From a virus: a DNA stretch of 43,203 nt. The position numbers and the translations under genes are program-made. Shown here in pieces: positions 1 to 15,900 of the stretch; within the stretch, counting starts at the first letter, position 1, and each line of letters opens with the position of its first letter. Below the pieces are notes generated by a model. It was given only the letters and a program-made list of their open reading frames with translations. It ran no database searches and was not told the DNA's origin. The stretch is taken from IMG/VR virus record IMGVR_UViG_3300042304_000395, positions 1-43,203 of that record, one strand, 5' to 3'.

Positions 1-795
1 TTCAAACTCTTGTCTGAATTGTTCTTCAGAGGTGTTACGGACAGTTTCTTCTTTCCATGCCGCATCTCGGCCAGGTACTTGTGACCAATGGACTTCAAGT
101 GGTTTGTAAGTTGAACGGCCTTCTTCAGCATCTACCCACATCTTATAGAAGTGGTTCAAACCATAAGGTGTAGAAACGATAATAACTTTTGTCGTTTTAC
201 CAGATGAAATCACAGGGTAGGTAGATGTAAAGAACTCATCAGCCATATTCTTAGGAACGAAAGCAAATTCGTCCAAGAAAATTAAGTTGTATGAGCCTCC
301 ACGAACACCAGATGCTGATGTTGCAAATGCAGCAATCTTAGATTTGTTTTCTAGTTCAATGTTACCTTTGTTCCAAACAATAATACCTTGTTGCAACCAT
401 AGAGGCAAATACTCATACGCATATTGAATGCGGCCTAGAATGTCACGAGCAAGAGAACCTTTGTTGGCCAAAATGGCAATACTGTAGTCATCTTGGAACA
501 AAACTGACCAAAGCATATAACCGACAGTTGTAGTTGTTTTACCAACCTGTCGAGGCATCTTTGCAATACAAAAACGATTGTTGTGAAATGTTCTGACCAT
601 GTCCTCTTGGAACGGCCACATCTCAAATGGAATTAAACCACGGTCAACGTTAACAATCTTAACATAAGTCTTAATGAAGTAGACCGGGTCTTCAGTACAT
701 TTTATAATTTCAGCAACTTGTTCCTCAGTATAGGACAGTTCAACGCCTGTCCTTTTGAGGTTGGAATTTCCCAGATACCCGCCAGCATCAACCAT
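1..795 (-). CDS. gp17: Large terminase subunit gp17, N-terminal part (cut by window edge)
   Basis: ATPase motor that pumps DNA into the prohead and cuts the concatemer. The 265 visible residues cover the ATPase domain; the C-terminal nuclease domain lies beyond position 1. Walker A is PRQVGKTT at residues 81-88, Walker B plus catalytic Glu is LIFLDE at 171-176, and STPYGLNHFY (208-217) matches the T4 stretch TTPNGLNHFY. NLKR at residues 12-15 matches T4 GLPNLKR, so this version lacks the roughly 65 residues that T4 has before it, as in marine T4-like phages. The ATG at 793-795 overlaps the end of the endonuclease gene by 8 bp, so translation is probably coupled; only a weak purine-rich RBS precedes it. 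The homology to gp17 is clear; the missing half cannot be judged. Confidence 0.97.
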   Translation of the reverse strand, partial: MVDAGGYLGNSNLKRTGVELSYTEEQVAEIIKCTEDPVYFIKTYVKIVNVDRGLIPFEMWPFQEDMVRTFHNNRFCIAKMPRQVGKTTTTVGYMLWSVLFQDDYSIAILANKGSLARDILGRIQYAYEYLPLWLQQGIIVWNKGNIELENKSKIAAFATSASGVRGGSYNLIFLDEFAFVPKNMADEFFTSTYPVISSGKTTKVIIVSTPYGLNHFYKMWVDAEEGRSTYKPLEVHWSQVPGRDAAWKEETVRNTSEEQFRQEFE

Positions 796-1366
796 TATTT
801 AAACCCATTCTTTTTTGGTAAGCTAATTTTGTTGCTTCAGAAATTTTTAATTTTTGTTCTAAAGTTCTTTTTTTACCTGAGTTGGATTTTGATATTTTTG
901 TTTTTGTTTCTTCTGTAATGGTACGTTTTTGTTTTTTTGAAGCTTCAGAAATTTTAGCTTTATGTTCGGCCGTAAAAGGTTTTCTTTTAATACCAATTAA
1001 TGCTTTAGATAATTTTATTCTTGTATCATTGGTAATTATTTTACCTTTTGCTTTTTCTGACATTTTCTTTTTAGAATCAGGTGTGTGTTTTAATCCAGAC
1101 ACACCTTCACCACCACTTGTAATATTTACCAATTTTATACCAAGTTTTTTATACTTATCAATAAGTTCTATTTCTATCAACAAAGAAAGTTCTTCATCTA
1201 AATTACTATATAAAATTTGAGATGAAAAACCAGCTTTATTAACAACATTGTGCCAATATCGATTTCGGTTATTTTTTTCGGAATGCCTATTATTTTTTCC
1301 TTTGCCAACATAAAATATCAGATTTTCATCTAATCGAGTATGTTGATATACATAATATAAATCCAT
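788..1366 (-). CDS. GIY-YIG homing endonuclease with NUMOD3 repeats
   Basis: Predicted free-standing homing endonuclease of 192 residues. The GIY-YIG fold is at about residues 1-90 in the divergent phage form: YYVYQHT (4-10) and FYVGKGK (18-24) stand for the two eponymous tyrosine motifs, followed by RNRYWHN (34-40), the acidic EELSLLIEIE (58-67) and NITSGGEG (81-88). Residues 93-182 hold at least four NUMOD3-type DNA-binding repeats (HTPDSKKKMSEKAKG; FTAEHKAKISEASKK; ITEETKTKISKSNSG; TLEQKLKISEATK). It begins 2 bp after the Dps-like stop and runs 8 bp into gp17. The gene looks clearly more AT-rich than its neighbours, as expected for a recent mobile insertion. No intron or intein is visible in the gp17 part present, so it is likely self-mobilising. 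Target site unknown. Confidence 0.92.
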   Translation of the reverse strand: MDLYYVYQHTRLDENLIFYVGKGKNNRHSEKNNRNRYWHNVVNKAGFSSQILYSNLDEELSLLIEIELIDKYKKLGIKLVNITSGGEGVSGLKHTPDSKKKMSEKAKGKIITNDTRIKLSKALIGIKRKPFTAEHKAKISEASKKQKRTITEETKTKISKSNSGKKRTLEQKLKISEATKLAYQKRMGLNNG

Positions 1367-1368
1367 AA

Positions 1369-1803
1369 TTATTTCGTGATACTACGAAGCATCCATGATT
1401 TCTTCTGATGAGCACCTAATAGGTCTTGCAAGAAGTTGCCAACCGCAGGTTCACCAGCCTCATCTGCCAAAACAATACCTGCACGAAGTTGCATAATGTA
1501 TCTATCATTATCCATCTTTAAAGTGGTCATCATGGTCAATGCATCAGGCACAGTAGTTGCTTCTTCTACAGCAGATAGTTCTAAGAATCTACTGAAAGAA
1601 CCTGGTGCATATGCATTTAAATAACGAATGTGTTCGGCAATCGGATCATTCTGAGCAAACACTTCAGTATAAAATGTATCAAGAAAACCATGGAATTGTG
1701 GAAAATCATTACCTTCAACATTCCAATGATAGTTGTGTGCTTTCAAATACAGGCCAAAGTTGGTGCCTAGAATAACTTTTAGTTGTTCGATTAATTGTTC
1801 CAT
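1369..1803 (-). CDS. Dps-like ferritin (DNA starvation protection family)
   Basis: A 144-residue four-helix ferritin-like protein. All five intersubunit ferroxidase ligands of the Dps family are present with the same spacing as in E. coli Dps (H51, H63, D67, D78, E82): here H26 in YHWN, H38, D42, D53 and E57. The family oxidises Fe(II) with peroxide, stores iron as a 12-mer and often binds DNA. The basic N-terminal DNA-binding tail of E. coli Dps is absent: the protein starts MEQLIEQLKV and goes straight into helix 1. The C-terminus AHQKKSWMLRSITK is basic and could contact DNA. It sits between the two terminase genes, 7 bp after gp16, suggesting late expression with packaging genes. Role in the phage (protecting packaged or host DNA, or iron capture) is inference. 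Confidence 0.88.
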   Translation of the reverse strand: MEQLIEQLKVILGTNFGLYLKAHNYHWNVEGNDFPQFHGFLDTFYTEVFAQNDPIAEHIRYLNAYAPGSFSRFLELSAVEEATTVPDALTMMTTLKMDNDRYIMQLRAGIVLADEAGEPAVGNFLQDLLGAHQKKSWMLRSITK

Positions 1804-1810
1804 AGTATCC

Positions 1811-2203
1811 TTATTTATTGTTCTTTAAAAACTTGACCAGTTCTGTGGTTGAACCAACAAATACTGCCTTATCTACATTCACATCACCACTTCTTTTAGC
1901 GGCCTGTGGGTCTAAATCTTTTTTGCGCTTCTGAATCTCCATCAAATCTTTATTCAAGTCTGATAGGTTCTTAATCAAATTGGCGGCAACTTCATATGCC
2001 CTTGGATGTTCTGACTCTTTGGCAACATTCAGAATGCCATCAACTGCTAAATTACCCTTTTCAATCAACTCACGGATATTTTGTCTAGCAAAATCAGCAT
2101 CATCATTTACCACAGTGTTTGTAACTGGTACAATCTCTGTTGCAATTGTTTCGATAGGTTCTAAATCTAAAACCTCCGATAAAGTTTCATTTAGTTTTTT
2201 CAT
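1811..2203 (-). CDS. gp16: Small terminase subunit gp16
   Basis: Regulatory subunit of the packaging motor; forms oligomeric rings that recognise DNA and stimulate gp17. The 130 residues align by eye with T4 gp16 (164): an acidic N-terminus, a central coiled coil at about 36-97 (FARQNIRELI; SEHPRAYEVAANLIKNL matching T4 NADSPRHMEVFATLMGQM), and the C-terminal signature NVDKAVFVGSTTELV (109-123) matching T4 IQNATVFMGSPTELM. It is shorter than T4 at the C-terminus. ATG overlaps the gp15 stop by 4 bp (ATGA), a coupled junction. In this phage gp16 and gp17 are no longer adjacent: the Dps-like and GIY-YIG genes lie between. Confidence 0.94.
   Translation of the reverse strand: MKKLNETLSEVLDLEPIETIATEIVPVTNTVVNDDADFARQNIRELIEKGNLAVDGILNVAKESEHPRAYEVAANLIKNLSDLNKDLMEIQKRKKDLDPQAAKRSGDVNVDKAVFVGSTTELVKFLKNNK
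1812..1818 (-). promoter_or_regulatory. Late promoter-like motif ATAAATA before the Dps-like gene
   Basis: CAATAAATAAGGATACT on the minus strand overlaps the gp16 stop. AAGG right after it is the RBS of the Dps-like gene, so a start here would give a near-leaderless message. Confidence 0.3.
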
Positions 2204-3231
2204 ATCAATGTGTCAGGCCATTCAGTAATTTCATCAATAAATCCAAATTGGTCATCTGGTGCTGTATTAGCAGGATCAGGTCTAACAATAACCTCAGCTG
2301 CATTCAACGGCGTCAAATCTAAACTGATTACTTTGTACCTTGAATTGGTGTAATCACCAAGAACAAAGTCGTTAGCAGTTACCAAACTACTTAGTTCGCC
2401 AAGGACTAGAACACCGTTTTCTGTGTTACTGAAGTAAACAACCTTACCAGTAACGTCTTTATTTTCAACTCTGATTGTTTCGCCTGTGGTGAACACATTG
2501 TTACCATTGGCATAGTCAACATACATTCGTTGAGCATCACGGCCTTGTGTATCGATAAAGATATTAGTCTTTGTGTAACCATATGCACTAGCAGTTGTAC
2601 TGTAGGCACCAATTAAACCACCACCAGATTTGACTGGTGGCCAAATGTAACCTTTGACTGTGAATGTCAAGTCCCAAACAATCAATCTGGTTGTAGAAAA
2701 GTCACCTTCATATTCAACGTTAGTAGCTACTGACTCTAATTTAATTGGAAGGTCATACTTCTGATTCATGCCAGGAATAAAATCAACTGTAACATTAAAA
2801 TCAGGTGTAAAGAATGGCAAAATCTGTTCTATGATTTGTGTACCATCTTCTGTGTTTCGCACATAGATTGATAAAGAAAACTCATAGTCATATGGTACAG
2901 GTGCATATTGTGTCTTTAGGCCATTGTTAGCATCAAGAGCAAAATTCTGTAACGTAGATACTTTTTTTCTACTTGAGTCATATGCCATACCAGTCATCTC
3001 AAATGAAATGCGTGGCACATGAGTGGCAATAGACCTTGTTAAATCGGGGTCACTTGTAATACGTGTGATGTATTGTTCTTTTGGTCCATATGAAAGAGGT
3101 ACTTTATATGTCTCATAAGATTGATTAACGTCTTTGTTGTAACGAACAATTTGAATGTCATTAAACAAAGTGCCAAAAGCCACTACGATTTTACGTATGG
3201 TTCTGTTGTAAAAGTGTTGGTTTCCTAGCAT
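2200..3231 (-). CDS. gp15: Tail sheath stabiliser and completion protein gp15
   Basis: Forms the hexameric tail terminator that caps the sheath and tube and joins the tail to the neck. The N-terminus MLGNQHFYNRTIRKIVVAFG and the segments FSLSIYVRNTEDGTQIIEQI (118-137) and LPFFTPDFN (138-146) match T4 gp15 (MFGYFYNSSFRRY; YELSIFTRYEDDMFQIVEQI; LPYFQPHFN). TTRLIVWDLTFTVKGYIWPP (180-199) matches the T4 SRRRIEWSLTFEVNGWMYPP. At 343 residues it is longer than T4's 272; the extra part at about 245-306 is a beta-rich module also seen in gp14 and gp8 here. A TAAATAA motif overlaps the preceding LamG stop just upstream of the ATG. Confidence 0.94.
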   Translation of the reverse strand: MLGNQHFYNRTIRKIVVAFGTLFNDIQIVRYNKDVNQSYETYKVPLSYGPKEQYITRITSDPDLTRSIATHVPRISFEMTGMAYDSSRKKVSTLQNFALDANNGLKTQYAPVPYDYEFSLSIYVRNTEDGTQIIEQILPFFTPDFNVTVDFIPGMNQKYDLPIKLESVATNVEYEGDFSTTRLIVWDLTFTVKGYIWPPVKSGGGLIGAYSTTASAYGYTKTNIFIDTQGRDAQRMYVDYANGNNVFTTGETIRVENKDVTGKVVYFSNTENGVLVLGELSSLVTANDFVLGDYTNSRYKVISLDLTPLNAAEVIVRPDPANTAPDDQFGFIDEITEWPDTLI

Positions 3232-3238
3232 AGTCGCT

Positions 3239-3245
3239 TATTTAT
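3239..3245 (-). promoter_or_regulatory. Late promoter-like motif ATAAATA before gp15
   Basis: TAATAAATAAGCGACT on the minus strand overlaps the stop of LamG 1, 7 bp before the gp15 ATG. May serve the packaging genes further on rather than gp15. Confidence 0.3.
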
Positions 3246-3961
3246 TATATTCCAAACCGACCCCTGTGAGCAGCAAAGTTTTGAACAACCTCACTTGCGG
3301 TTAAGCAACGGTTATACACTTTAGCAATTGCAATATTTCCTGGAAAGTGATTAGCCCAACTACCCGTTGGAATATTTAAAAACAATGGATTGGAATGAGT
3401 TACAGTATCGGTTGTTCTCACAGTACCGCTGCCATTAGTATTTAAATTGCCATCAATGTATTGAAAAACATTTCCATTTGTTCTATCAATTATTCCTACC
3501 CAATGATGCCATCGATTAGCAACAAGAATGGCTGATGTATTAAAGGCTTCTTGGCCAGTAGAATCTGCTGTTGTAAGGTGGACATATTGTGATGAATTTA
3601 ACCATGCAGCATACGTTCTTGTATTTTGGTCTCCAGCCGCATTCATTTTATTGATAATATTGCTCCACCCGCTAGAAAAACTAAAGGAATTTACTTTAAA
3701 CCATGCTTCTAAAGTCATAGTCCGTCTAATGTCTAAAGATGCTGCATTCCCACAATTCACACAATCATTTACTCCATCAAAAGAAAACGTGCCTGCATTA
3801 CCAGAGTTATAAGCTGCACCACCTACTAATGTACCATTATTTCCAAGGCCACTCATGTCGGTCCAAGTATTTCCAGTATTGGCAAAACTCTTACTATTAG
3901 CCGCATCTAGGTAAAATACTAACCCACTCTCGATGCCATTAGGTCCTGATTGTACACTCAT
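3245..3961 (-). CDS. LamG/concanavalin A-like lectin-fold protein 1
   Basis: A 238-residue single-domain protein of the LamG-like jellyroll type. Signatures in order: GLVFYLDAANSKSF (13-26), GNTWTDMSGLGNNGTL (30-45), FSFDGVNDCVN (60-70), MTLEAWFKV (82-90), RWHHWVGI (about 150), a YIDG turn and the C-terminal IAKVYNRCLTASEVVQNF followed by RGRFGI. Such domains bind glycans or act as decoration proteins on virions. There is no signal peptide or membrane segment. It is the last of three tandem paralogues; its ATG overlaps the stop of the preceding one by 4 bp. Likely a neck, capsid or tail decoration, but the attachment point is unknown. Confidence 0.85.
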   Translation of the reverse strand: MSVQSGPNGIESGLVFYLDAANSKSFANTGNTWTDMSGLGNNGTLVGGAAYNSGNAGTFSFDGVNDCVNCGNAASLDIRRTMTLEAWFKVNSFSFSSGWSNIINKMNAAGDQNTRTYAAWLNSSQYVHLTTADSTGQEAFNTSAILVANRWHHWVGIIDRTNGNVFQYIDGNLNTNGSGTVRTTDTVTHSNPLFLNIPTGSWANHFPGNIAIAKVYNRCLTASEVVQNFAAHRGRFGI

Positions 3962-4647
3962 ACGTTAAACCTTCCACGCATAGCATTAAAATTCTGCTGA
4001 ACTTCTTGTAATGATAATTCTCTATTGTAGATTCTAGTAAGTCCAACTCTACCATTTAACATTTCATCACCACCAGGATGGTTGTTACCAATTGTTAGGT
4101 AGGCACTAGCAACGGCCGGCAATGTAGTTATTCCAAATGCATTCGTGCTATTTACAAGCACACCATTGATATACATTTTTGCTGTACCGCTAGCAAACGT
4201 AACAACCACATGATACCAATTTCCTGCACTAAGAGTAGATCCATTGTAAAGTTGATACCACGTTCCTGGCCAGTTACTACTGAATACGAACTGGTTACCA
4301 CTTGAGGTCCATAATGCATATTGTTCGGCAGCATCAGTACCGTATGTTAGCACACCCCCAATGTTATTCCATGTAGTTGGATATACCCATGCTTCTAATG
4401 TAAGGTTGTTTGTAATATTTAGCGCACTATAAACAGGATGCTGAAAAAACTGCGAGCTCGCAGAAGCCATATTAAAATAGCCACCATTATTACTACTGAA
4501 TTGAGGACCGTTGGTAGCGACAGAAGATCCGCCACCAATCATATCAGTCCACGTGTTACCTGTTCCAGAATAACTTTTGGAATTAGCCGCATCCAAATAT
4601 AATACTAAACCCTTAGTTGTGATTGAGGGTGAATGTGCTAATGCCAT
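3958..4647 (-). CDS. LamG/concanavalin A-like lectin-fold protein 2
   Basis: A 229-residue paralogue of the genes on both sides. It has GLVLYLDAANSKSYSGTGN (13-31), NTWTDMIGGGSS, LTLEAWVYPTTW in the middle, WYHVVVTFASGTAKMYINGV, and the shared C-terminus LQEVQQNFNAMRGRFNV. The 33 bp encoding the C-terminal end are identical to those of paralogue 3 (3964-3996 and 4653-4685), showing recent duplication or gene conversion. The start ATG (4645-4647) shares a base with the preceding TAA. Function probably glycan binding on the virion surface; substrate unknown. Confidence 0.85.
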   Translation of the reverse strand: MALAHSPSITTKGLVLYLDAANSKSYSGTGNTWTDMIGGGSSVATNGPQFSSNNGGYFNMASASSQFFQHPVYSALNITNNLTLEAWVYPTTWNNIGGVLTYGTDAAEQYALWTSSGNQFVFSSNWPGTWYQLYNGSTLSAGNWYHVVVTFASGTAKMYINGVLVNSTNAFGITTLPAVASAYLTIGNNHPGGDEMLNGRVGLTRIYNRELSLQEVQQNFNAMRGRFNV

Positions 4648-4685
4648 TATATGTTAAACCTTCCACGCATAGCATTAAAATTCTG
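3964..4685 (-). repeat. 33-bp exact repeat at the ends of two LamG genes
   Basis: Positions 3964-3996 and 4653-4685 are identical and encode the QNFNAMRGRFN C-terminus of LamG proteins 2 and 3. Confidence 0.85.
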
Positions 4686-5375
4686 TGACACTTGATTTTG
4701 AGTAAATCCTATATTATAAGCTGTGACTACTGCAATCCTACCATCTAACTCAGGCGTACTAATGGTGGATCTAGTTCCTATTGTAATGGGAGAACTATTC
4801 TCACTTCTGGCCACTGTTAAAGAAGAAAATAAAATAGAATTTATAAAAACTCCATTTATATACAAGCTTGCGGTTGTTCCATCTCCAGTCCACACAACGT
4901 TATACCATTGCCCTGGAGTAGCATTGTAATATACTCTTGCAGTGCTTCCGGCTGGATTACTACCAACGTTGGATGCTGATATTCCTAGAATTTCATTTGT
5001 TGCCTCCATCCAAATGCCATTGGTGGAATTTGAATACGACCCTCCATTTGCTTTTTGTATGAGTGTAGCATAATCTACATATTCATCTACAACAAACCAT
5101 CCACTTAGGGTGAATGTTGTTGAAGCTCCAAACACTTGGCTTGAGATTGCTGCATCATGAGGAATCGTAGCATAACTATCGGTTGTTCTGTTAAAATCTA
5201 AACAACCACTTTTTTCTGAGCTATACGCTACTCCGTTAAGTAACGTAGCGTTACGACCATTGCCGCTTATATCAAACCATGTGTTACCTGATCCGGGATA
5301 GGATCGTAAGTTAGCAGCATCAAGATGAAGCATCAATCCACTCTTTACTATTTTTGGATTATATCCAACACCCAT
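4647..5375 (-). CDS. LamG/concanavalin A-like lectin-fold protein 3
   Basis: A 242-residue LamG-like protein, first transcribed of the triplet. Signatures: GLMLHLDAANLRSYPGSGN (13-31), TWFDISGNGRNATLLNG (32-48), TFTLSGWFVVDEYVDY, WYNVVWTGDGTTASLYINGV, and C-terminal QVSQNFNAMRGRFNI. Start chosen at 5375, with AAGGAG 7 bp upstream and the gp14 stop 11 bp away. It continues the neck operon without a promoter gap, so it should be made late together with gp13-gp15. In T4 gp14 and gp15 are adjacent, so the triplet is an insertion into a conserved cluster. Confidence 0.85.
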   Translation of the reverse strand: MGVGYNPKIVKSGLMLHLDAANLRSYPGSGNTWFDISGNGRNATLLNGVAYSSEKSGCLDFNRTTDSYATIPHDAAISSQVFGASTTFTLSGWFVVDEYVDYATLIQKANGGSYSNSTNGIWMEATNEILGISASNVGSNPAGSTARVYYNATPGQWYNVVWTGDGTTASLYINGVFINSILFSSLTVARSENSSPITIGTRSTISTPELDGRIAVVTAYNIGFTQNQVSQNFNAMRGRFNI

Positions 5376-5386
5376 ATTAAAACTCC

Positions 5387-6268
5387 TTATGGTTCACCAA
5401 AAGGATTATGTTCTGTGAAGTCTATAATTCCATCAGCTTCAGATTCAATTCTTGCATTGTCAACCACATCTTCAAACGCATTGTTCATTGTGGCAGTATC
5501 AGAAATTGTATTGATAATCCATTGAGCACCACTTGTGTTACCAACCACATTGCCAGAAACAAAATTGCCTTGTACTCTAATCACATCAACGTGGATGTTT
5601 GGAGTCAAATCATGTACTACAGCCTGTGCTGTTGAGAATGACAAATTAGGACCTTGATAAATGATTTCGTCATTTACAAACTTACCTGTACCTGTACTGA
5701 GAGCAATACGTGTTCTTGGATAAGCATCTCTAATTTGTTCATCAACTTCTTTAATACCAGTATCAACAATCTCATTAGAGAATACGAACTGTTTGAGTTT
5801 CAAGGCATAAACATAAACGTTGGCACCACGACCACGGCCTAATGTATAGAACATTGCTTGGTCGTTCTCATGTTCCACCATAGTAATCTCAAAGAAGTTT
5901 TGCACCAAAGGAATATAAATTAAATCGCCTTCAAAAGGTCTAGGTTGTGGAACTGTAGATTTAAACCTTCTGCGGGAAACTAATAGAGTAATTTCATCTC
6001 TGATTTCTAAGCCAAACTTAGAGATAAAGTCGCCTTCACCATCCATACCTGTAATGTTTTCCATATACAATTCAATAGCATACGCCTCGGTATACTGTTT
6101 GAGTGTATCTTCACCATAGATATAATCTACTTGGTCACGACTAGACCTTGGTAAGTAGAATACATCCATGCCATTGATTTTTAAGGCCTCAATTAAGAGG
6201 TCTTCAACCAGCAATTGCTCAGAAGTAATCTGAGTTGGAAAATTATTAAAGTATAGATTTGTTGCCAT
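5387..6268 (-). CDS. gp14: Neck protein gp14
   Basis: Head-completion/neck protein that with gp13 seals the portal after packaging and gives the docking site for the tail. The N-terminal half (MATNLYFNNFPTQITSEQLL; EALKINGMDVFYLPR at 28-42; LYMENITGMDGEGDFISKFG at 67-86; VSRRRF at 97-102; PFEGDLIYIPL at 111-121; FEITMVEH at 126-133) is typical of T4-family gp14. At 293 residues it exceeds T4's 256; residues about 193-255 hold an extra beta-rich module (GTGKFVNDEIIYQG ... GNFVSGNVVGNTSGAQW) related to those in gp15 and gp8 here. It starts 3 bp after the gp13 stop. Confidence 0.94.
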   Translation of the reverse strand: MATNLYFNNFPTQITSEQLLVEDLLIEALKINGMDVFYLPRSSRDQVDYIYGEDTLKQYTEAYAIELYMENITGMDGEGDFISKFGLEIRDEITLLVSRRRFKSTVPQPRPFEGDLIYIPLVQNFFEITMVEHENDQAMFYTLGRGRGANVYVYALKLKQFVFSNEIVDTGIKEVDEQIRDAYPRTRIALSTGTGKFVNDEIIYQGPNLSFSTAQAVVHDLTPNIHVDVIRVQGNFVSGNVVGNTSGAQWIINTISDTATMNNAFEDVVDNARIESEADGIIDFTEHNPFGEP

Positions 6269-6271
6269 GTT

Positions 6272-7225
6272 TTAACCAATAAACATCTCGCCTGGAAGTA
6301 CATTGTAAGATTGCATTTCTTCTTCAATCTTATCAATCTCCGTCTGTGCTTCTGCCATGATTCTTGGACCATCAAGTGTGACACCACCAGGTAATTGAAT
6401 GCCAGCAAACTTACTTAGGTTTGAACCCCATTGGTATTTAATTTTGGCTGTTGCATACTGCTTCAAGAACCTATCGTTCCAAACATCTGAAACACCAATC
6501 TTAGTGGCAGTTACATTAGTTAAATCTGAGCCTAATGGATTCATCAATTGTATCTCAGTTGGGTTCTTAATGTGTCTCACTTGTTTCTCAACACCACCAA
6601 TTGTGATAATGTCGTTCTCAAGGATTTCTTGGTCAAAGATTGTACTAGTTCCTGTAACTGTATTAGAAGTGGCATTACCTGTTAGTGTACCAGTTAGTGT
6701 GATTGTATCTGGTACCAATGAGCGGTAGCATTCAACAATAACATATTCGCCAACTTCTCTATCTCTTGACCAATCAATGTCAAGGAATAGTTTGTTTTGG
6801 TGGCGATTAAATCTAAACTGTGGAGTACCAGAGAACAACATATTCAATGTCTGAATGTGTTGCATCGTAATCTCATATGACACATACGATACCGATGTGA
6901 AGTCATATAGGTCGTGCAGACGCAACTGGTAACGCAAGTCGAACATATTGATTGATGAATTAGAATCATCAAATGGTAAAACTTTTGTAACAAAGATGAC
7001 CGAATCTGGACAATAAATCCAGCGGCGTTCAATATCTTCTGCCGTGATTCTGTGCTTCATAAAAATCTTCTCACAACCATCAAAGTGATAGTCATGGAAA
7101 AACTGTAAAGCATCATCAATACGATCCTCAATTTGGTCATCATCAACGTTAATGTCAATCACAGGCCAACCGAGTCGGCGCAGGCAATAATCTTTGAATA
7201 GTTTTCGTGTTGTAGGTTTTGCCAT
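6272..7225 (-). CDS. gp13: Neck protein gp13
   Basis: Neck/head-completion protein that binds the portal ring; works with gp14. The 317 residues begin MAKPTTRKLFKDYCLRRLGW, followed by VDDDQIEDRIDDALQFFHDY (27-46), both typical of T4-family gp13 (T4: 309). A beta module (GTLTGNATSNTVTGTSTIF ... NDIITIGG) is inserted at about residues 174-243, after which the conserved helical part resumes (DRFLKQYATAKIKYQWGSNL). Preceded 3 bp upstream by the stop of the 1032-residue fibre gene. No promoter is evident, so expression is by read-through. Confidence 0.93.
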   Translation of the reverse strand: MAKPTTRKLFKDYCLRRLGWPVIDINVDDDQIEDRIDDALQFFHDYHFDGCEKIFMKHRITAEDIERRWIYCPDSVIFVTKVLPFDDSNSSINMFDLRYQLRLHDLYDFTSVSYVSYEITMQHIQTLNMLFSGTPQFRFNRHQNKLFLDIDWSRDREVGEYVIVECYRSLVPDTITLTGTLTGNATSNTVTGTSTIFDQEILENDIITIGGVEKQVRHIKNPTEIQLMNPLGSDLTNVTATKIGVSDVWNDRFLKQYATAKIKYQWGSNLSKFAGIQLPGGVTLDGPRIMAEAQTEIDKIEEEMQSYNVLPGEMFIG

Positions 7226-7228
7226 TTT

Positions 7229-10200
7229 TTATCCTAAAGCGATTGATAGTGCCAATACATCAGCAATTCCTGCACCAGCTGATGTTTGTTTTGTGCCATC
7301 GGTGAATGTGATACCATTACTTGTAGCACCAGTCAAGTAGATTCCACCACTATAAACGTTGCCTCTAATACCAGCACCACCATACACAATTAAAGAACCT
7401 GATGTGTTTGTTGTGGCGGCTTGAACGTTGGCAACATTAACACCTGATGCTGCATTAAAAAAGACACGTAAATCACCAAAATCATTATAAATTTGGCCTC
7501 TTATTACTAAGTTATAACCAGTTTCAACATATGTATTGGTTAATAGAGACAGATATGTTCCAGTGAACTGAACACCACCAAATTGATTGCTTCTATGAAA
7601 ATAGTTATCAGTCCAACCTAATCGATAAGAACTACCACTACCTGAACCTGTAAAATTGTTTGCAGAGGACATGAACAGATTACCTGTTATGCCTAAGCCA
7701 CCATTCAGTACAAGAGAACCAGTTGTATTTGAAGTCGATGCAACTGTGGAGTAAATGTTTACTTTACCATTAATACCTTTTGGTACAATGTTAATGTCTG
7801 AGTTAGCATCAACACCTTCAACAGTAATGAAAACACCGTTAGCATTTACACCAGTATTTCCTGGTCTAACTTGAATATAGTTATTAGCAGATACGCCTGT
7901 ATTATATGGAGGTGCAACTGTAAACGCAAATGTTCCGTTTTGTGGTCCAAATGAAATAACACTTGTGCCATCAGATAAACTGAATCCTAAATTACCTGCT
8001 GTCGTTTTATGGAGAGCTCTAGGAGTATCAGAACCATTTATTCTCAACCCTGCTAAGTTTGAATATCCATTAACAAATAGTGACCAAGGTTGATTTCCAC
8101 TCCAACCATTTGTTTGATTGATGTAAACTAATGCATTTGCACCAGAGTTTGTACCACCATCACCAAAAGTATTAGCAGAAATATAAAGTGCTGAACCACC
8201 CCTATTGTAGAAGTTGCCACCTATACCAGCACCACCATTTAATATCAACGCACCTGATGAGTTTGAAATAGCCGCATTAGTGCAAGCAACATATACACCT
8301 CTGTCGGTGAAAATCGTTGCGCCATTATATGTTGCTGTCAAGAATAGGTTAGCAGTTGTGGAATTAGGTGAACTTAGTTTACCGCCAACCAACAAATCTC
8401 CATTATAATATACTTGACTAGCATCAAAATCAAAATTGGATGTTGAACCACCTTGTAATGCTCTTAATGTTCTGCCGTTTGTTCCACCAAATGCAATTGC
8501 ACCACTTGTAGAAGTATTAGTAACAATCAAACCATGTGAACCGGTTGCATTGATAACCAAGTTGCCGGTCATCGTATCGCCAGTTTTTAATACTCGATTA
8601 TTAGCTGCGGTAAATGCTGCCGTAATGCTATTGTTCTGAGTTGTATCAATTAATAAACTTTGGTTAGCAACTGCAAACGCTGCAGTAATACTATTGTTTT
8701 GAGTTGTATCAATCAGTAAAGATGCGTTAGCTATTAAGAAGGCCGCATTAGCATAATTTGAAGCCGCTAGAGCATTCACGACAGCAAGGTTAGCCTGTGT
8801 GAATGAGGCTGTGATGCTATTGTTTTGTGTAATGTTTGTTGTACCAGCCGCATTAGCTGCTGCAAAAGCACCGTTAGCATAAATGCCAGCCGACTCTGAG
8901 CCAATAAAATATGCACCAGTTGCTGAACCACTATTTGCTTGCCACTTACCAGCAGATTCTATCCATAATAGAGATGCATTTGCTAGTGTGTTGCCTCTGT
9001 TAATTTCAAAACCAGCATTTTCAGATGGTGTTACTGAAACAGGGAGTTCAGCATTCAACGTAATGATGTTGTCACCAAGTTGGACATTTATGGTGTTTGC
9101 ATACGTTGTTTGACCACTAATTGTCAAATTACCAGTAACAACTAAATCACCAGTAATTGTGCCACCTGCATTAGCACTGATAGAGTTATTGGCTCTAGTG
9201 AAGGCAGCTGTGATACTATTATTCTGTGTTAAGTCTGTTGCAGCTGATAGTGTAGCTGCTGAATTGGCTGCTAAGAAAGCAGCTGTGATACTATTATTCT
9301 GTGTTAAGTCTGTTGCAGCTGATAGTGTAGCTGCTGAATTGGCTGCTAAGAAAGCAGCTGTTATGGAATTGTTTTGAGTTAAATCGGTAGCAGCTGATAA
9401 TGTAGCCGCTGAATTGGCTGCTAAGAAAGCAGCTGTTATGGAATTGTTTTGAGTTAAATCGGTAGCAGCTGATAATGTAGCCGCTGAATTGGCTGCTAAG
9501 AAAGCAGCCGTGATACTGTTATTCTGTGTTGTATCTATGCCATTAATTAAGTTGGCTGAAGTAAATGCGGCGTTAGCATGGTTGAATGCTCTGCCTGCAA
9601 AACCAATGATGTTGACACCAGTGTCGTAAACACCACCAGAATATACGTTACCTGAAACACCAAGACCGCCAGCAACAGTCAGAGCACCCGTTGTATTGCT
9701 AACCGAAGTAGAAGTACCTTGAACAGTCAGATTTCCTTGCAGAGTTCCATTGCCTGTTGCATCAGCAATAGTAAGACGATTTACACCCTGAGTTTGAAAA
9801 AAGATGTTTGAATTATCTGCTTGATTAAACACAGCGCCAGATCCAGTAGCAGTAATTTTTAATCTAGCTGCTGAGTCATTTGGTGCAGAAATTCCCAATT
9901 GGCCATTAACTGTGGCGTTTGTAACACTAAGGTTACCTGCAATACCAACACCACCAGCAACAGTCAGAGCACCCGTTAAATTACTGGTTGATGCAATAGT
10001 ATTAGAAATGTTTACACTACCGTTAATTGTAACATTACTTGTAATTTGAGATGCTAATGCAATGCTACTATTTGACTGGCCAAGTGTTAATGTTTTTCCT
10101 GCCAGCGCTCGAACTGAACCATTTTGTTCAAAAATAATATCAACCGAGGTAATACCATCGCCGACATAGATGTCAGAAGCAGTATCACCCAGAGAAATAT

Positions 10201-10327
10201 CTCCACCGGGGTTAAATATTTGCAAATTGCCAAAGTCATCAAGTTGAATATAGGCGTCAACATTGCCGCTATCATCCTTGAAGTCTATAAGACCGCTTGC
10301 CGGGGTAATTACTACATTTTTTGGCAT
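7229..10327 (-). CDS. Long repeat-bearing tail fibre / stalk protein (1032 aa)
   Basis: Predicted fibre. The N-terminus (VVITPASGLIDFKDDSGNVD; IQLDDFGNLQIFNPGGDISL; GDTASDIYVGDG) is the form often seen at the particle-bound end of marine T4-like fibres. Residues about 273-372 are four perfect-length 25-residue tandem repeats built around TQNNSITAAFLAANSAATLS. Then follows a module shared with two other fibres here (AGGTITGDLVVTGNLTISGQ; GDNIITLNAELPVSV; GKWQANSGSATGAYFIGSES), more QNNSITAAF units, then VLKTGDTMTGNLVI and blocks of the form SNTTGSLVLNGGLGITGN. The C-terminus ends SNGITFTDGTKQTSAG then LALSIALG. The AAF/AN periodicity suggests a long trimeric stalk. Starts directly after the upstream TAA. 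Receptor unknown. Confidence 0.85.
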   Translation of the reverse strand: MPKNVVITPASGLIDFKDDSGNVDAYIQLDDFGNLQIFNPGGDISLGDTASDIYVGDGITSVDIIFEQNGSVRALAGKTLTLGQSNSSIALASQITSNVTINGSVNISNTIASTSNLTGALTVAGGVGIAGNLSVTNATVNGQLGISAPNDSAARLKITATGSGAVFNQADNSNIFFQTQGVNRLTIADATGNGTLQGNLTVQGTSTSVSNTTGALTVAGGLGVSGNVYSGGVYDTGVNIIGFAGRAFNHANAAFTSANLINGIDTTQNNSITAAFLAANSAATLSAATDLTQNNSITAAFLAANSAATLSAATDLTQNNSITAAFLAANSAATLSAATDLTQNNSITAAFLAANSAATLSAATDLTQNNSITAAFTRANNSISANAGGTITGDLVVTGNLTISGQTTYANTINVQLGDNIITLNAELPVSVTPSENAGFEINRGNTLANASLLWIESAGKWQANSGSATGAYFIGSESAGIYANGAFAAANAAGTTNITQNNSITASFTQANLAVVNALAASNYANAAFLIANASLLIDTTQNNSITAAFAVANQSLLIDTTQNNSITAAFTAANNRVLKTGDTMTGNLVINATGSHGLIVTNTSTSGAIAFGGTNGRTLRALQGGSTSNFDFDASQVYYNGDLLVGGKLSSPNSTTANLFLTATYNGATIFTDRGVYVACTNAAISNSSGALILNGGAGIGGNFYNRGGSALYISANTFGDGGTNSGANALVYINQTNGWSGNQPWSLFVNGYSNLAGLRINGSDTPRALHKTTAGNLGFSLSDGTSVISFGPQNGTFAFTVAPPYNTGVSANNYIQVRPGNTGVNANGVFITVEGVDANSDINIVPKGINGKVNIYSTVASTSNTTGSLVLNGGLGITGNLFMSSANNFTGSGSGSSYRLGWTDNYFHRSNQFGGVQFTGTYLSLLTNTYVETGYNLVIRGQIYNDFGDLRVFFNAASGVNVANVQAATTNTSGSLIVYGGAGIRGNVYSGGIYLTGATSNGITFTDGTKQTSAGAGIADVLALSIALG
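9211..9510 (-). repeat. Four 75-bp tandem repeats in AABB order
   Basis: Four head-to-tail 75-bp units inside the 1032-residue fibre gene (starts at 9211, 9286, 9361, 9436). Units 1 and 2 are identical, units 3 and 4 differ at one base, while the two pairs differ at many silent sites. All encode the same 25 residues. Confidence 0.9.
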
Positions 10328-12793
10328 TTATTTTAATCTTCCACCTAGTCTTAATCTTCTTTGTAGTTGTGCCAGTAAACTTCCAGTTCCAATCAAGGCC
10401 TGGTTAGATTGGCTACCATTAATTGAAGCAAATGCTGGTACAGCATACGGTTTATCTAATGTAACATTAATATTTTTCATCCAGCACCCCTCAGAAGTGG
10501 TAGCAGAGTCATGATGAACACCTATGTTTATGAAACGAGAAAATGCAACTGGAGCAATTGTTAACTCAAGGGTTTCATAAGCACTGGTTGCTGCAGCACT
10601 AAATCGTGTGGATTGTGTACCTCCAGCCATCCAAGTACTGTAATTTCCTCCTGCATTGCTTAGCTGATTAGGTGTAGTTCCAGAAACAACATCTCTTGCT
10701 TCGAATGTAGGATATGCACCAGAAAATCCTGGTGCTAATTTAATTTGCGCTCTTGCTCTTGCCGTAACACCTGCTGGAATAAAAACTGATTCAAACCACC
10801 CACTCCCGTAGTCGGCTCCATCCGCTATCCAATAAACTCTCCATGCGTTTTCAACCGCATCCCAAAATCTTACCGAAAGATAATTTTGTTGATAGATAGC
10901 ATCGTATTCCATATTATGTTCAATAACATTTCCAGAAGCACCATTGTGCCCTCTATCAATATGACCACCGTGATAACTTCCTCTAACCTGAAGATTATTA
11001 GCTGCAGGCGAATAACCACTGGCAAAATTAAATATAGAATATATTAAAGTGTTAGCATTGTACGGATCCATTTCCATACCTCTTCTGTTACCTGTGTGTT
11101 TATGTTTATAGTAGGCTCTAAAAAAACCACTAACAAAATTAAGGTAGTCAGTACCATCAGAAATATAATGATGAATTCCTATATTACCATCATACCAATG
11201 GAATCTACCTGCTCTAACTGAACGAGAAACATAAACATAACCAACTTCTGCCCACTCACTACCTCCTTCTAATCTACACCCCCATGCTTCACTAGCAACT
11301 GATATACTGTTGTAGAGAGCCATACCTTCTCGATACCATAAAACATATGAAGCGTTAAATCTACCTTGTACATGACTACATCTTATCTGGTCATATCTAC
11401 CATAAATCCAAAATCCACCTAAATCACGGGTAGAGTTTGAGCCTGTCATTACAATGCCTTCTAACCAAGAATTTTGACTGTGTGCTGGTACAGTATTTGT
11501 TAAAGTAACAGACAAACTCACATTGGCTTTCCAATTACCAGCAGCTAGATATAGACCTCCTTCTGCTTGACCTTGACTACTGCCTGCATACTTTAAATAA
11601 ACATCTTTAAAAATTATTGCTCTTGAGTAATTGGTGCCACCTGGTTCAATATACACTCCATAATAGTCGGTGTTTGGAGTAACTGGTTCTATAACTACAT
11701 CTCGTGTCAAACGATTGACCAATGCCCCAGAAACTACATTGTAACCAATAGCGGCAGTGAGGGTAATAACATTCCCAGAAACGGATGAAATAGTATGTTT
11801 ATATCTCGGACCAGGGGTTTCATTCCCATACGCGCTTTGAGCATAATCGGTTGTTCCTCCACATTCACTTCTGGCTTCAATCCAAATATCATTACCTGCC
11901 ACAAACATATTTGCATTAGCAACTGTGATTGTTGTGGCTGCTGCAAGAGAAGAAACTGTTGTAACAGTAGCACACTTTCTAACCTTGTTATTGATAGTGT
12001 GAATCTTATCAGACCCGGTTTCATAAACAGTTAACCCGGTTACAGTACCAGTAACAGAACCAGATAATATTAATCTATTAGAAAAATATTCAATTGCGCT
12101 AATTGTGTGTATATTTCTATTTGCACCTGTGCCAAAAATAATAATCTGACCAGCACGAAATACTTTTGAATTAGCAACTGTTAGTATGGTTCCTGATGCT
12201 GAAACCACAGTGGACTCAGGACCGACAAACTGTCTAAAATAAACCGTATTACTGTCTATATCGTGAATCCAAAACCCTTCATCTCTAAGAGTTGATGCAC
12301 CTGCATTTCCTGCTTGTGTGGTTGTATTGTCAAATATAGCGAACCATTCACCTACCGCAAAATTGGTAGCGGATGTAAAAGCAAAACTTGTTGCTCTTTC
12401 ATTTGCCCCAGCTGAAAGGGTGGTAGTTGGCATGCCATCACTACCTTCCATAATAACACTCGCCCCAGTCTCTCCTACCCCATATAGAATATGTGAAGAT
12501 GTAGCTGTTCCTCTAAATTGTAAGGTATGACCTGCCCGGGCATGATAAGTACCTGCAGTTCTTACACGTAGTCTACCGTTCATTCTAAGTACAGTAGTTG
12601 TATTTAATTGGGTCTGTAGAATTCCACGAATATCGCTATCATCAAACCCATTGGTAACAGGTGTAGATACATTGTATATAACAGTATGACCGGCTGCGAT
12701 ACTGAACGAATCACCATCAACAGGGACAACCCCGCCTACCCAAGTACCTGTTGCATCAAAATTACCAGAAGCGGTTGATGTTATTACTGCCAT
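10328..12793 (-). CDS. G8-like / beta-helix virion protein (821 aa)
   Basis: Large beta-rich protein. Residues about 9-40 (GNFDATGTWVGGVVPVDGDS ... AAGHTVIYNV) resemble the start of a G8-type domain, the W-GG-P-GD-GHTV pattern found in secreted carbohydrate-associated proteins. The middle has repeated turns rich in Gly, Asn and aromatic residues consistent with a right-handed beta-helix or pectate-lyase-like fold (GGLYLAAGNW; GGFWIYGRYDQIRC; GCRLEGGSEW; GNVIEHNMEY). The end, TGSLLAQLQRRLRLGGRLK, is strongly basic. No catalytic residues can be assigned. Translation is coupled to the 55-residue gene upstream by a TAATG overlap. Likely an adhesin or a depolymerase-like tailspike; enzymatic activity is not shown. 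Confidence 0.75.
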   Translation of the reverse strand: MAVITSTASGNFDATGTWVGGVVPVDGDSFSIAAGHTVIYNVSTPVTNGFDDSDIRGILQTQLNTTTVLRMNGRLRVRTAGTYHARAGHTLQFRGTATSSHILYGVGETGASVIMEGSDGMPTTTLSAGANERATSFAFTSATNFAVGEWFAIFDNTTTQAGNAGASTLRDEGFWIHDIDSNTVYFRQFVGPESTVVSASGTILTVANSKVFRAGQIIIFGTGANRNIHTISAIEYFSNRLILSGSVTGTVTGLTVYETGSDKIHTINNKVRKCATVTTVSSLAAATTITVANANMFVAGNDIWIEARSECGGTTDYAQSAYGNETPGPRYKHTISSVSGNVITLTAAIGYNVVSGALVNRLTRDVVIEPVTPNTDYYGVYIEPGGTNYSRAIIFKDVYLKYAGSSQGQAEGGLYLAAGNWKANVSLSVTLTNTVPAHSQNSWLEGIVMTGSNSTRDLGGFWIYGRYDQIRCSHVQGRFNASYVLWYREGMALYNSISVASEAWGCRLEGGSEWAEVGYVYVSRSVRAGRFHWYDGNIGIHHYISDGTDYLNFVSGFFRAYYKHKHTGNRRGMEMDPYNANTLIYSIFNFASGYSPAANNLQVRGSYHGGHIDRGHNGASGNVIEHNMEYDAIYQQNYLSVRFWDAVENAWRVYWIADGADYGSGWFESVFIPAGVTARARAQIKLAPGFSGAYPTFEARDVVSGTTPNQLSNAGGNYSTWMAGGTQSTRFSAAATSAYETLELTIAPVAFSRFINIGVHHDSATTSEGCWMKNINVTLDKPYAVPAFASINGSQSNQALIGTGSLLAQLQRRLRLGGRLK

Positions 12794-12960
12794 TATATGC
12801 CTGTCATTATTTTAATATTAGGGTCAAACATTTCAGGATCCGGTCTAGATAATTCAAGTATGAGCTTACCCTCGACTACCCCGATTTCATTTACAGATAT
12901 TGTGGAATCTTCACACTCTGCATCTAAAGTGTCTAGGTTTATAATTAGTTTTATTAACAT
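12793..12960 (-). CDS. Small acidic protein of unknown function (55 aa)
   Basis: Short gene filling the only gap between two fibre genes. It encodes MLIKLIINLDTLDAECEDST then a beta-like acidic stretch and ends FDPNIKIMTGI. The stop TAA shares its last base with the ATG of the 821-residue protein (TAATG), and a late-promoter-like ATAAATA lies 6 bp before its start. No signal peptide or known motif. Tight coupling suggests a partner or chaperone of the following beta-helix protein, but this is inference. I do not recognise the family. Confidence 0.6.
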   Translation of the reverse strand: MLIKLIINLDTLDAECEDSTISVNEIGVVEGKLILELSRPDPEMFDPNIKIMTGI

Positions 12961-12965
12961 AATAG

Positions 12966-12972
12966 TATTTAT
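12966..12972 (-). promoter_or_regulatory. Late promoter motif ATAAATA
   Basis: CAATAAATACTATT on the minus strand just after the 1056-residue fibre gene and 5 bp before the 55-residue gene. Too close for a normal leader to that gene, so it may mainly serve the 821-residue gene. Confidence 0.4.
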
Positions 12973-12979
12973 TGTATAA

Positions 12980-15900
12980 TTAAATTTCTACCTGGAGCTT
13001 ACTCACATCAACTCGCTCGGCAAATATTGTGTAGAAACATTTAAGCTTATCTACTGTATTATCTTCAATACCAATTGTTACTGTATTGTTGACTATATTT
13101 TCAACAAATAATTTCTGATAATTACCAATAGATGATAATTGCACAGTTATAGAATTCGGATCAATCAGTTTAACCCAGTAGTCAGGTAACTCGATAGTGG
13201 TTGTTCCTTCTAATTGACCACGAACATAAACTCCGTTCTCTGGACCTTCAAGAGAACCATATCGTAATTGCATACCTTCTTTTAGTGGATGTTTAATTAC
13301 GAATGACTTAGTTGTGGCAGATAAAGTACCTACAATAACCAAGTTACCGGTCATCGTATCGCCAGTTTTTAATACTCGGTTATTGGCTGCGGTAAATGCC
13401 GCTGTAATACTATTGTTCTGAGTTGTATCTGTAGCAGTAGCTGCATTGGCAGCTGCGAAGGCACCGTTAGCGTAAATTGCGGCACTATTAGCCGTAGTAA
13501 ACGCAGCCGTGATACTATTGTTTTGAGTAGTGTTTGTTGTAGTGGCTGCGTTAGCTGCCGCAAAAGCACCATTAGCATAAATTCCAGCAGAGTTAGCTGC
13601 AATGAAAGATGCTGTAATACTATTGTTCTGTGTTAAATCGGTTGCAGCTGATAGTGTTACAGCTGCATTGGCTGCCGTAAAGGCACCATTAGCGTAAATG
13701 CCGGCACTATTTGCAGCAATAAATGCGGCAGTGATACTATTGTTTTGTGTAGTATTAATTGTAGACTGCAATGTAGCAGCAGTATTACCTGCTAAGAAAG
13801 CAGCTGCAGCCGTATTTGTTACCGATGTGATGTTGGTGTTTTGTGTTGCATCAGTAGCAGCTGATAATGTAGCTGCTGAATTGGCTGCTAAGAAAGCAGC
13901 TGTAACAACGGCTTCATTAGCAAGGAAATAAGCACCAGTTGCAGAACCACTATTTGCTTGCCACTTACCAGAAGCCTCAATCCACAATAGTGATGAGTTA
14001 GCAAAAGTATTACCACGATTGATTTCAATACCAGCATTTTCTACTGGTGTTACTGATGTTGGTAACTCAGCATTCAATGTGATAAGGTTGTCACCAACTA
14101 AGAGTTGTACTGTATTGGAATAAGTTGTTTGACCACTAATTGTTAAGTTACCAGTAACAACTAAATCTCCAGTGATTGTACCACCCGCATTTGCGCTAAT
14201 AGAATTATTAGCTCTGATAAAAGCGGCCGTTATGGAATTGTTCTGTGTTAAATCGGTAGCAGCTGATAGTGTAGCAGCTGAGTTAGCCGCCAAGAAAGCA
14301 GCCGTTATGGAATTATTTTGAGTTACATCAGTTGCAGCTGATAATGTAGCAGCTGAATTGGCTGCTAAGAAAGCAGCTGCAGCCGTATTTGTTACCGATG
14401 TGATGTTGGTATTCTGAGTTGCATCGGTAGCTGCTGATAAAGTGGCTGCTGAATTAGCAGCTAAGAAAGCAGCTGTAATACTATTATTTTGCGTTGTATT
14501 AATTGTAGACTGCAATGTAGCAGCAGTATTACCTGCTAAGAAAGCAGCTTCAGCCGTATTTGTTACGGATGTAATGTTGGTATTCTGAGTTGTATTGATA
14601 CCAGACTGTAATGTTGTAGTTGCATTGGCTGCCGTAAAGGCACCATTAGCGTAAATGCCGGCACTATTTGCAGCAATAAATGCGGCAGTAATACTATTAT
14701 TTTGTGTTGTATCTACACCATTGGCCAAGTTGGCAGAAATGAATGCGGCATTTGCAGTATTGAAAGCTGCATTGGCAAAAGCAATGACCTCAACGCCTCC
14801 ATCATAAACTGCGTCTGCATATACGTTCCCTCTTACCCCAACGCCTCCATCGACAACCAATGCGCCTGTTGAGTTAGATACAGAGGTGGCTGCATTGTAG
14901 ATGTGGACGTTACCGCCATACTGTGCCATGGAAATCCATCCATTGGCATCAACATCAATAACAGGCAAACCAGAAATGTCATTAACTGAGAATATACTAC
15001 CTGCAGCCATGCTGTCGGTAATAGAGAACAACTCGCCAGCATTACCTGAGAACGACAATGTTCCACCATTCAACATTCTCATGGTGATGGTGTTTTGTGT
15101 ATTTGGACTTACGAATGCAGTATTAGACTGGATGGTTAATGATGCACCATTACCAGTAATTGTTACATTACTTGATATGATGACGTTACCGGTGATTGTG
15201 CCACCAGTGTTAGCATTCAGACTATTGTTTGCTCTTGTGTAAGCGGCATTAGCCTGAACAAAGGCCGCTGTTAAACTATTGTTTTGTGTGAGGTTTGTTG
15301 TTGTAGCTGCATTAGCAACTGCAAAAGCACCATTAGCATAGTTACTTGCTGATAATGCATTAACAATAGCAAGATTGGCCTGCGTAAAAGAGGCCGTGAT
15401 ACTATTGTTTTGTGTAACATTAATTGCATCAGTAGTTGTTGTGTTTGCAAATGATGTGCTGTTTAAACCATCCAATAAGTCAGCATCAAGACCAGAACCT
15501 GCACCATCAACTGAGGTAATAAAACCAAGAAGTTGAGTATTGGAGATTGCACCAGATACACCACCAACAGATGTAACTGTACCACCACCTGAACCAGCAT
15601 TGGCAGTATATTGTCTTGTACCATCGGAGAACTGGACATAACCAGTTGTCGCAAGTGCAGGTGTACTTAAAACACCAGCATCTGTTAATGAAAGAATAGT
15701 GGCTGTATAACCACTATTAACAACTTCCATATCACCAATGCTGTTCACACGGAAATGTTTAGAACCATTTGCCGCAGTTGAGTTATGAGCCTCTAAGAAA
15801 CCATGATAATTTGCACCACCTTTTTGATTGGTGCCTCTTGATATAAAAGAGGAATCGCCAGGAGAACCAGCTGACCTGACACTACCACCAACTGTGAGTG

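Follow-up and report, generated by a model that had tools for sequence, protein, structure and literature searches.

A tail-less Dps-type mini-ferritin gene at a fixed position between the terminase genes of uncultured T4-like phages

The analysed window, a stretch of 43,203 nucleotides corresponding to positions 1 to 43,203 of the IMG/VR virus record IMGVR_UViG_3300042304_000395, starts with a closely spaced block of genes on the minus strand, in which a gene for a Dps-type mini-ferritin lies downstream of the small terminase subunit gene (TerS) and upstream of the large one (TerL). The features of this locus are the following.

1..795, minus strand: terminase large subunit gene (gp17-like), truncated by the window end (Terminase_6N, 3e-23; phrog_5989, 1e-61)
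788..1366, minus strand: homing endonuclease ORF of 192 residues, NUMOD3-containing and of GIY-YIG type by its N-terminus (phrog_314, 1e-23; NUMOD3, 8e-5)
1369..1803, minus strand: Dps-type mini-ferritin gene, 144 residues (PF00210, PHROG 3636, AlphaFold2, Foldseek)
1808..1812, minus strand: Shine-Dalgarno-like AAGGA for Dps, overlapping the TerS 3' end, read from the sequence
1811..2203, minus strand: terminase small subunit gene (gp16-like; phrog_445, 1e-35; PF11053, 5e-9)
2200..3231, minus strand: gp15-like tail sheath stabiliser gene, the start of the conserved block gp15-TerS-Dps-TerL (PF16724, 1e-68)

The gp16-like and T4-type gp17-like genes flanking Dps constitute a T4-type terminase pair, and the Gp23 capsid gene is found in the same genome. 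The initial annotation had placed the ferritin between the two terminase genes, which is correct for TerS on the upstream and TerL on the downstream side, but it had omitted the homing endonuclease ORF separating Dps from TerL in the window. This ORF is a recent insertion, because the near-identical contig L006, encoding an identical Dps protein, lacks a homing endonuclease at this boundary. Relative to L006, 574 additional bases separate the stop of Dps from the start of TerL in the window. Differences also cluster within the first ~50 bases of TerL, which beside a homing endonuclease is the usual mark of co-conversion. Similar homing endonuclease ORFs are located at the same Dps-TerL boundary in four further contigs (L159, L238, L311, L338). 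Beyond gp15, at 3245-5375, the window contains three adjacent paralogous ORFs of 229-242 residues, sharing a start motif of approximately 'LDAAN..S(F/Y)..(T/S)GNTW.D' and the end '(M/H)RGRF', whose products are probably structural or adhesin-like.

The window belongs to the same genome as contig L007 (157,713 bp), to which it is 100% identical over 5.5 and 29.9 kb at the two contig ends. It bridges these ends, with positions 5479-13262 supplying the ~7.8 kb missing there, resulting in a genome of ~165 kb that carries 23 tRNA genes besides the capsid gene. Photosystem genes, considered as a guide to the host, gave none: psbA/D had no match in this genome, and eight related records contained no Photo_RC. 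The TerL protein shows 63-66% identity to its counterparts in cyanophages and Pelagibacter phage Mosig, and we therefore place the phage near the Kyanoviridae.

The assignment of the ORF as a Dps-like ferritin, initially made from the sequence letters, was corroborated by profile searches as well as by the predicted fold. Pfam Ferritin (PF00210) matches the protein over its full length (residues 5-142) at 2e-21, PHROG 3636, annotated as 'DNA binding protein', matches it at 8e-31, and the comparison with solved structures retrieved 46 sequences, almost exclusively of Dps type, with a best value of 4.5e-23. The AlphaFold2 model of the monomer, calculated from an input of 61 family members, reached a pLDDT of 97.4 and a pTM of 0.92 and displays the Dps subunit fold, comprising a four-helix bundle and a short helix between helices B and C (helices 2-28, 34-61, 70-76, 88-115 and 119-143). 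The closest solved fold identified by Foldseek was P. aeruginosa Dps PA0962 (8ff9) with a TM of 0.96, and dozens of Dps structures matched the model with Z values of 21-23, among the fold matches A. tumefaciens Dps (1o9r), whose title describes protection of DNA without binding. Hundreds of homologues at one locus, evolving under purifying selection, confirm that the gene is real, far beyond chance.

The protein begins at its first helix and, in line with the initial reading, is devoid of the basic N-terminal DNA-binding tail of E. coli-type Dps. An alternative upstream start adding such a tail was considered and ruled out, as the frame is closed by a stop 8 codons before the ATG and offers no start codon. 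The window protein is thus a tail-less, Dpr-like mini-ferritin, and an acidic one, with a pI of 5.1 and a net charge of -7. Because of the missing tail and the acidic charge it is unlikely to coat DNA, and we expect that any DNA protection would proceed without DNA binding.

We next consider the ferroxidase site. H26, H38, D42, D53 and E57 occur at the exact spacing of E. coli Dps (51/63/67/78/82), so that all five canonical ligands proposed initially are present in the window copy. In the canonical centre, one subunit contributes two His and one Asp, and its partner an Asp and a Glu. Their codons, with conservation among 175 distinct full-length phage relatives and 82 close bacterial Dps proteins, are the following.

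1726..1728, minus strand: H26 codon, ferroxidase ligand (E. coli H51), invariant in 175/175 phage and 82/82 bacterial sequences
1690..1692, minus strand: H38 codon, ferroxidase ligand (E. coli H63), invariant in 175/175 phage and 82/82 bacterial sequences
1678..1680, minus strand: D42 codon, site-B ligand (E. coli D67), variable among relatives
1645..1647, minus strand: D53 codon, ferroxidase ligand (E. coli D78), invariant in 175/175 phage and 82/82 bacterial sequences
1633..1635, minus strand: E57 codon, bridging ligand (E. coli E82), invariant in 175/175 phage and 82/82 bacterial sequences

The description of the site as complete therefore holds for the window copy but does not extend to the family. 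Position 42, whose equivalent in canonical centres contributes to iron binding at the weak site B, is acidic in only 28 of the 175 phage relatives and non-acidic in 84% (Gly 82, Asn 58, Asp 27, Glu 1), making the five-ligand site a minority state among these relatives; the 82 bacterial sequences carry Glu (66) or Met (16) there. An acidic residue (Asp/Glu) at position 39 is present in 114 of the 147 phage relatives without an acidic residue 42, versus 1 of the 28 with one, a strong anticorrelation (Fisher 5e-14). A shift of the site-B carboxylate by one helical turn, from 42 to 39, compensating for the loss of D42, is suggestive at this stage, because the tree provides only ~5 independent pairs (4 opposite, 0 same, p 0.125) and residues 39-63 appear to have been shuffled as a segment. 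With D53 invariant, none of the 175 phage proteins has the His at the E. coli D78 position that defines a His-type centre. Ferroxidase competence of the window protein can fairly be inferred from its ligands, and the invariance of the core ligands together with purifying selection suggests that the protein is maintained for its iron chemistry. Since most relatives have lost the site-B ligand, however, efficient peroxide-driven activity should not be assumed for the phage family.

To describe the position of the gene across phages, we searched viral contigs using the Dps protein as well as alignments derived from it and obtained at least 486 relatives. Among the first 80 loci, every contig of sufficient length showed the order gp15-TerS-Dps-TerL, and in the pooled set 148 of 184 distinct Dps genes were arranged directly as TerS-Dps-TerL, the rest lying mostly at contig ends or beside an inserted ORF. 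The gaps at these junctions were mostly between -4 and +8 bases. A second survey of 80 loci was seeded only on TerS, with a query built from Dps-bearing phages, so that its figures describe that clade and not T4-like phages generally; it recovered Dps in 63 of 69 intact TerS...TerL junctions (~91%), TerS and TerL abutting in the six junctions from which it was absent, and in five further loci Dps was located at the contig end. The survey of gp16-gp17 spacers advocated in the initial annotation thus reveals a gene that is near-universal in this uncultured clade and absent from the same junction in two cultured relatives, Pelagibacter phage Mosig, which has a 70-residue ORF there, and cyanophage S-CREM1, which has five other genes. 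The marine setting assumed in the initial annotation found no support, as the names of the contigs pointed to no habitat. A collection of phage isolates contained no close Dps homologue, the best full-length match showing 35% identity and residing elsewhere in the genome of S-SRM01. Mapping the presence of Dps onto the TerL tree requires at least 4 changes, and the gene was therefore gained or lost several times.

The junction also accepts further genes, as ORFs of 152, 258 and 270 residues (contig L180, 453-2451) and of 176 residues (L306, 2469-2999) are inserted between TerS and Dps. In contig L054 (6440-8518), ~1.3 kb interrupt the TerL gene after residue ~86, possibly an intron or an inserted element. 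Three genomes (G008, G009 and G010, from the contigs of L166, L343 and L298) contain a second, weaker ferritin match elsewhere.

Such a setting raises the question of whether the gene is a passive passenger, derived from a host, caught in an insertion hotspot and of little benefit to the phage. A hyperplastic region of cyanomyoviruses in which host genes accumulate was reportedly described by Millard in 2009, and the junction contents differ between the cultured relatives. The purifying selection, the invariant ligands and the retention of Dps in ~91% of the intact junctions of the clade argue against this explanation, which we regard as quite improbable.

Assessing the evolution of the gene, we obtained dN/dS values of 0.07-0.18, similar to those of TerS and gp15 and above that of TerL. 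In the phylogenetic tree the phage proteins occupy one side and the 82 bacterial proteins the other (SH-aLRT 90); the bacterial relatives were identified by a contig search with a mixed alignment, the first contig search, with a phage-only Dps alignment, having yielded none. Distances between phages correlated only weakly between Dps and either terminase subunit (rho 0.10-0.14), as compared to 0.66-0.69 between TerS and TerL, which rules out a co-evolution of Dps with the terminase. One pair, L011 and L243, shares 99.8% identity in TerL and 98.4% in TerS but only 67% in Dps, with the drop in identity beginning and ending inside the Dps gene. For all pairs with TerL less than 3% different, a difference above 20% was found in 11% for Dps, 1% for TerS and 2% for gp15. 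The slot itself is fixed, whereas the Dps alleles within it are exchanged between otherwise near-identical phages, a pattern taken from metagenomic contigs, for which chimeras are a caveat, and recurring in contigs from different samples.

These data bear on two further explanations. The near-perfect adjacency to both terminase subunits could reflect a physical partnership, in which Dps would contact TerS or TerL and aid the packaging motor. A binding partner should co-vary with its target, however, and the weak distance correlations, together with phages of almost identical TerL carrying strongly divergent Dps proteins, disfavour this idea, as do the six relatives in which the terminase genes abut without Dps; we consider it very improbable. 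The allele exchange itself suggests an anti-defence or host-matching role, with Dps as a late gene that diversifies through conflict with the host, keeping its iron site while its remainder is swapped between lineages. Whereas the excess of divergent Dps alleles in pairs with similar TerL and the swap boundaries inside the gene are consistent with this scenario, the low dN/dS speaks against it, and the exchange could stem from neutral recombination, helped by the homing endonucleases recurring at the Dps-TerL boundary, or in part from chimeric contigs. A role in host conflict hence appears unlikely to us.

Of the three roles put forward in the initial annotation, namely protection of DNA during packaging, iron in the virion and the taking of host iron, the present observations single out none. 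A location in the virion has also to be weighed, with a Dps shell or subunit in or on the head carrying iron or protecting the packaged DNA. The fixed position within the head and packaging block is in agreement with such a cargo, as is the observation that some Dps genes of other uncultured phages have head genes in their vicinity, of the virion structural family phrog_1645 and the head closure family phrog_460. BFVD moreover contains fusion-like Dps-fold proteins of 333-763 residues that are 'Prohead protease' by name only. Three of these, A0A6J7WPK9, A0A6J7XDU5 and A0A6J7WIS1 from uncultured Caudovirales, are possible fusions bringing Dps into heads; among the viral contigs that we fetched, no fusion of Dps with a prohead protease was present. 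The window protein, however, possesses neither a tail nor a fused domain for head targeting, and the Dps gene of Salmonella phage 7-11 is located among nucleotide-metabolism genes and not head genes. We regard virion cargo as rather unlikely.

The reading to which we lean, with moderate confidence, is that of a late-expressed, non-DNA-binding Dpr/Dps-like ferroxidase that clears the infected cell of Fe2+ and peroxide. Twelve subunits would form a shell with ferroxidase centres at the subunit-dimer interfaces, at which Fe2+ would be oxidised, by O2 or by H2O2, for storage as mineral. Fenton reagents would thereby be removed from the cell in the late phase, during packaging of the phage DNA, and the tail-less, negatively charged protein would protect this DNA without binding to it. 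Because the genes are adjacent and the Shine-Dalgarno sequence overlaps the TerS stop, Dps would be produced together with the terminase from the same closely spaced block, and the proposal of the initial annotation that expression is linked to packaging is supported by gene order and the short gaps. Late-promoter motifs, T4-type (TATAAATA) as well as CTAAATA, were not enriched over shuffles, and no late promoter was located. The weak coupling of Dps to TerS and TerL sequence evolution disfavours a binding role in the motor, and the location of the gene may instead reflect the known insertion-prone, hyperplastic stretch, whose limits are g15-g18, and late timing. Iron and ROS detoxification late in infection would be the simplest reading, against which it counts that the mobile genes usual in hyperplastic regions would not be expected to come so close to fixation at a single junction across hundreds of genomes.

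More tentatively, and with considerable doubt, the observations might be combined into a mini-ferritin that is near-core in the packaging block of a common uncultured T4-like clade, has a reshaped ferroxidase centre with the site-B carboxylate lost or moved from 42 to 39, and exchanges its alleles faster than the flanking genes do. It would then serve late in infection as a host-tuned module for iron/ROS handling or anti-defence and not as a generic auxiliary gene. The locus places iron handling within the late gene block of a phage group that hundreds of contigs represent, and phage-mediated ROS defence becomes directly testable with one small gene. The family further offers natural variants of the ferroxidase centre (D42, N42/D39, G42/E39), in which four ligands are fixed and the fifth varies.

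Dps-family ferritins in lytic phages are already known. Besides the window phage they occur in Lactobacillus phages (PMC6669764), in the 'Gratiaviridae' gut phages, where DPS was likewise read as a ROS defence (PMC8008677), in Salmonella phage 7-11 and its kin and in Synechococcus phage S-SRM01; for 7-11 and S-SRM01, whose surroundings we inspected, the gene does not lie between terminase genes, and the window protein is at most 35% identical to Dps proteins of the phage collection. The closest parallel in role comes from uncultured aquatic phages, as freshwater phages carrying ferritin and other oxidative-stress genes were interpreted as phage-mediated ROS defence (PMC6802176), in a main text that mentions neither Dps nor terminase and contains no locus or ligand analysis. 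In the literature that we searched, which largely left out subscription journals, we found no description of Dps between terminase genes, of the relaxed site B or of the allele exchange.

Regarding the ferroxidase centre, NpDps4 of Nostoc punctiforme has Asn at the equivalent of E. coli D67 and His in place of Asp78, and it oxidises Fe2+ with O2 with no evidence of H2O2 use (PMC6675082). It shares a non-acidic residue at the D67 position with most relatives of the window protein, but is only a partial guide to them, because its site A is His-type, in contrast to the Asp of the phage family at the D78 position; in the window copy, position 42 is the canonical Asp. Closest in structure are the bacterial Dps/Dpr proteins, including PA0962 (8ff9) and those of Listeria innocua and A. 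tumefaciens, with which the window protein has in common the four-helix Dps fold (TM up to 0.96, Z ~23) and the core ligands. The phage proteins differ from these in forming their own side of the tree, in an N-terminus ~9-22 residues shorter than in the 82 close bacterial relatives and in mostly having no acidic residue at position 42.
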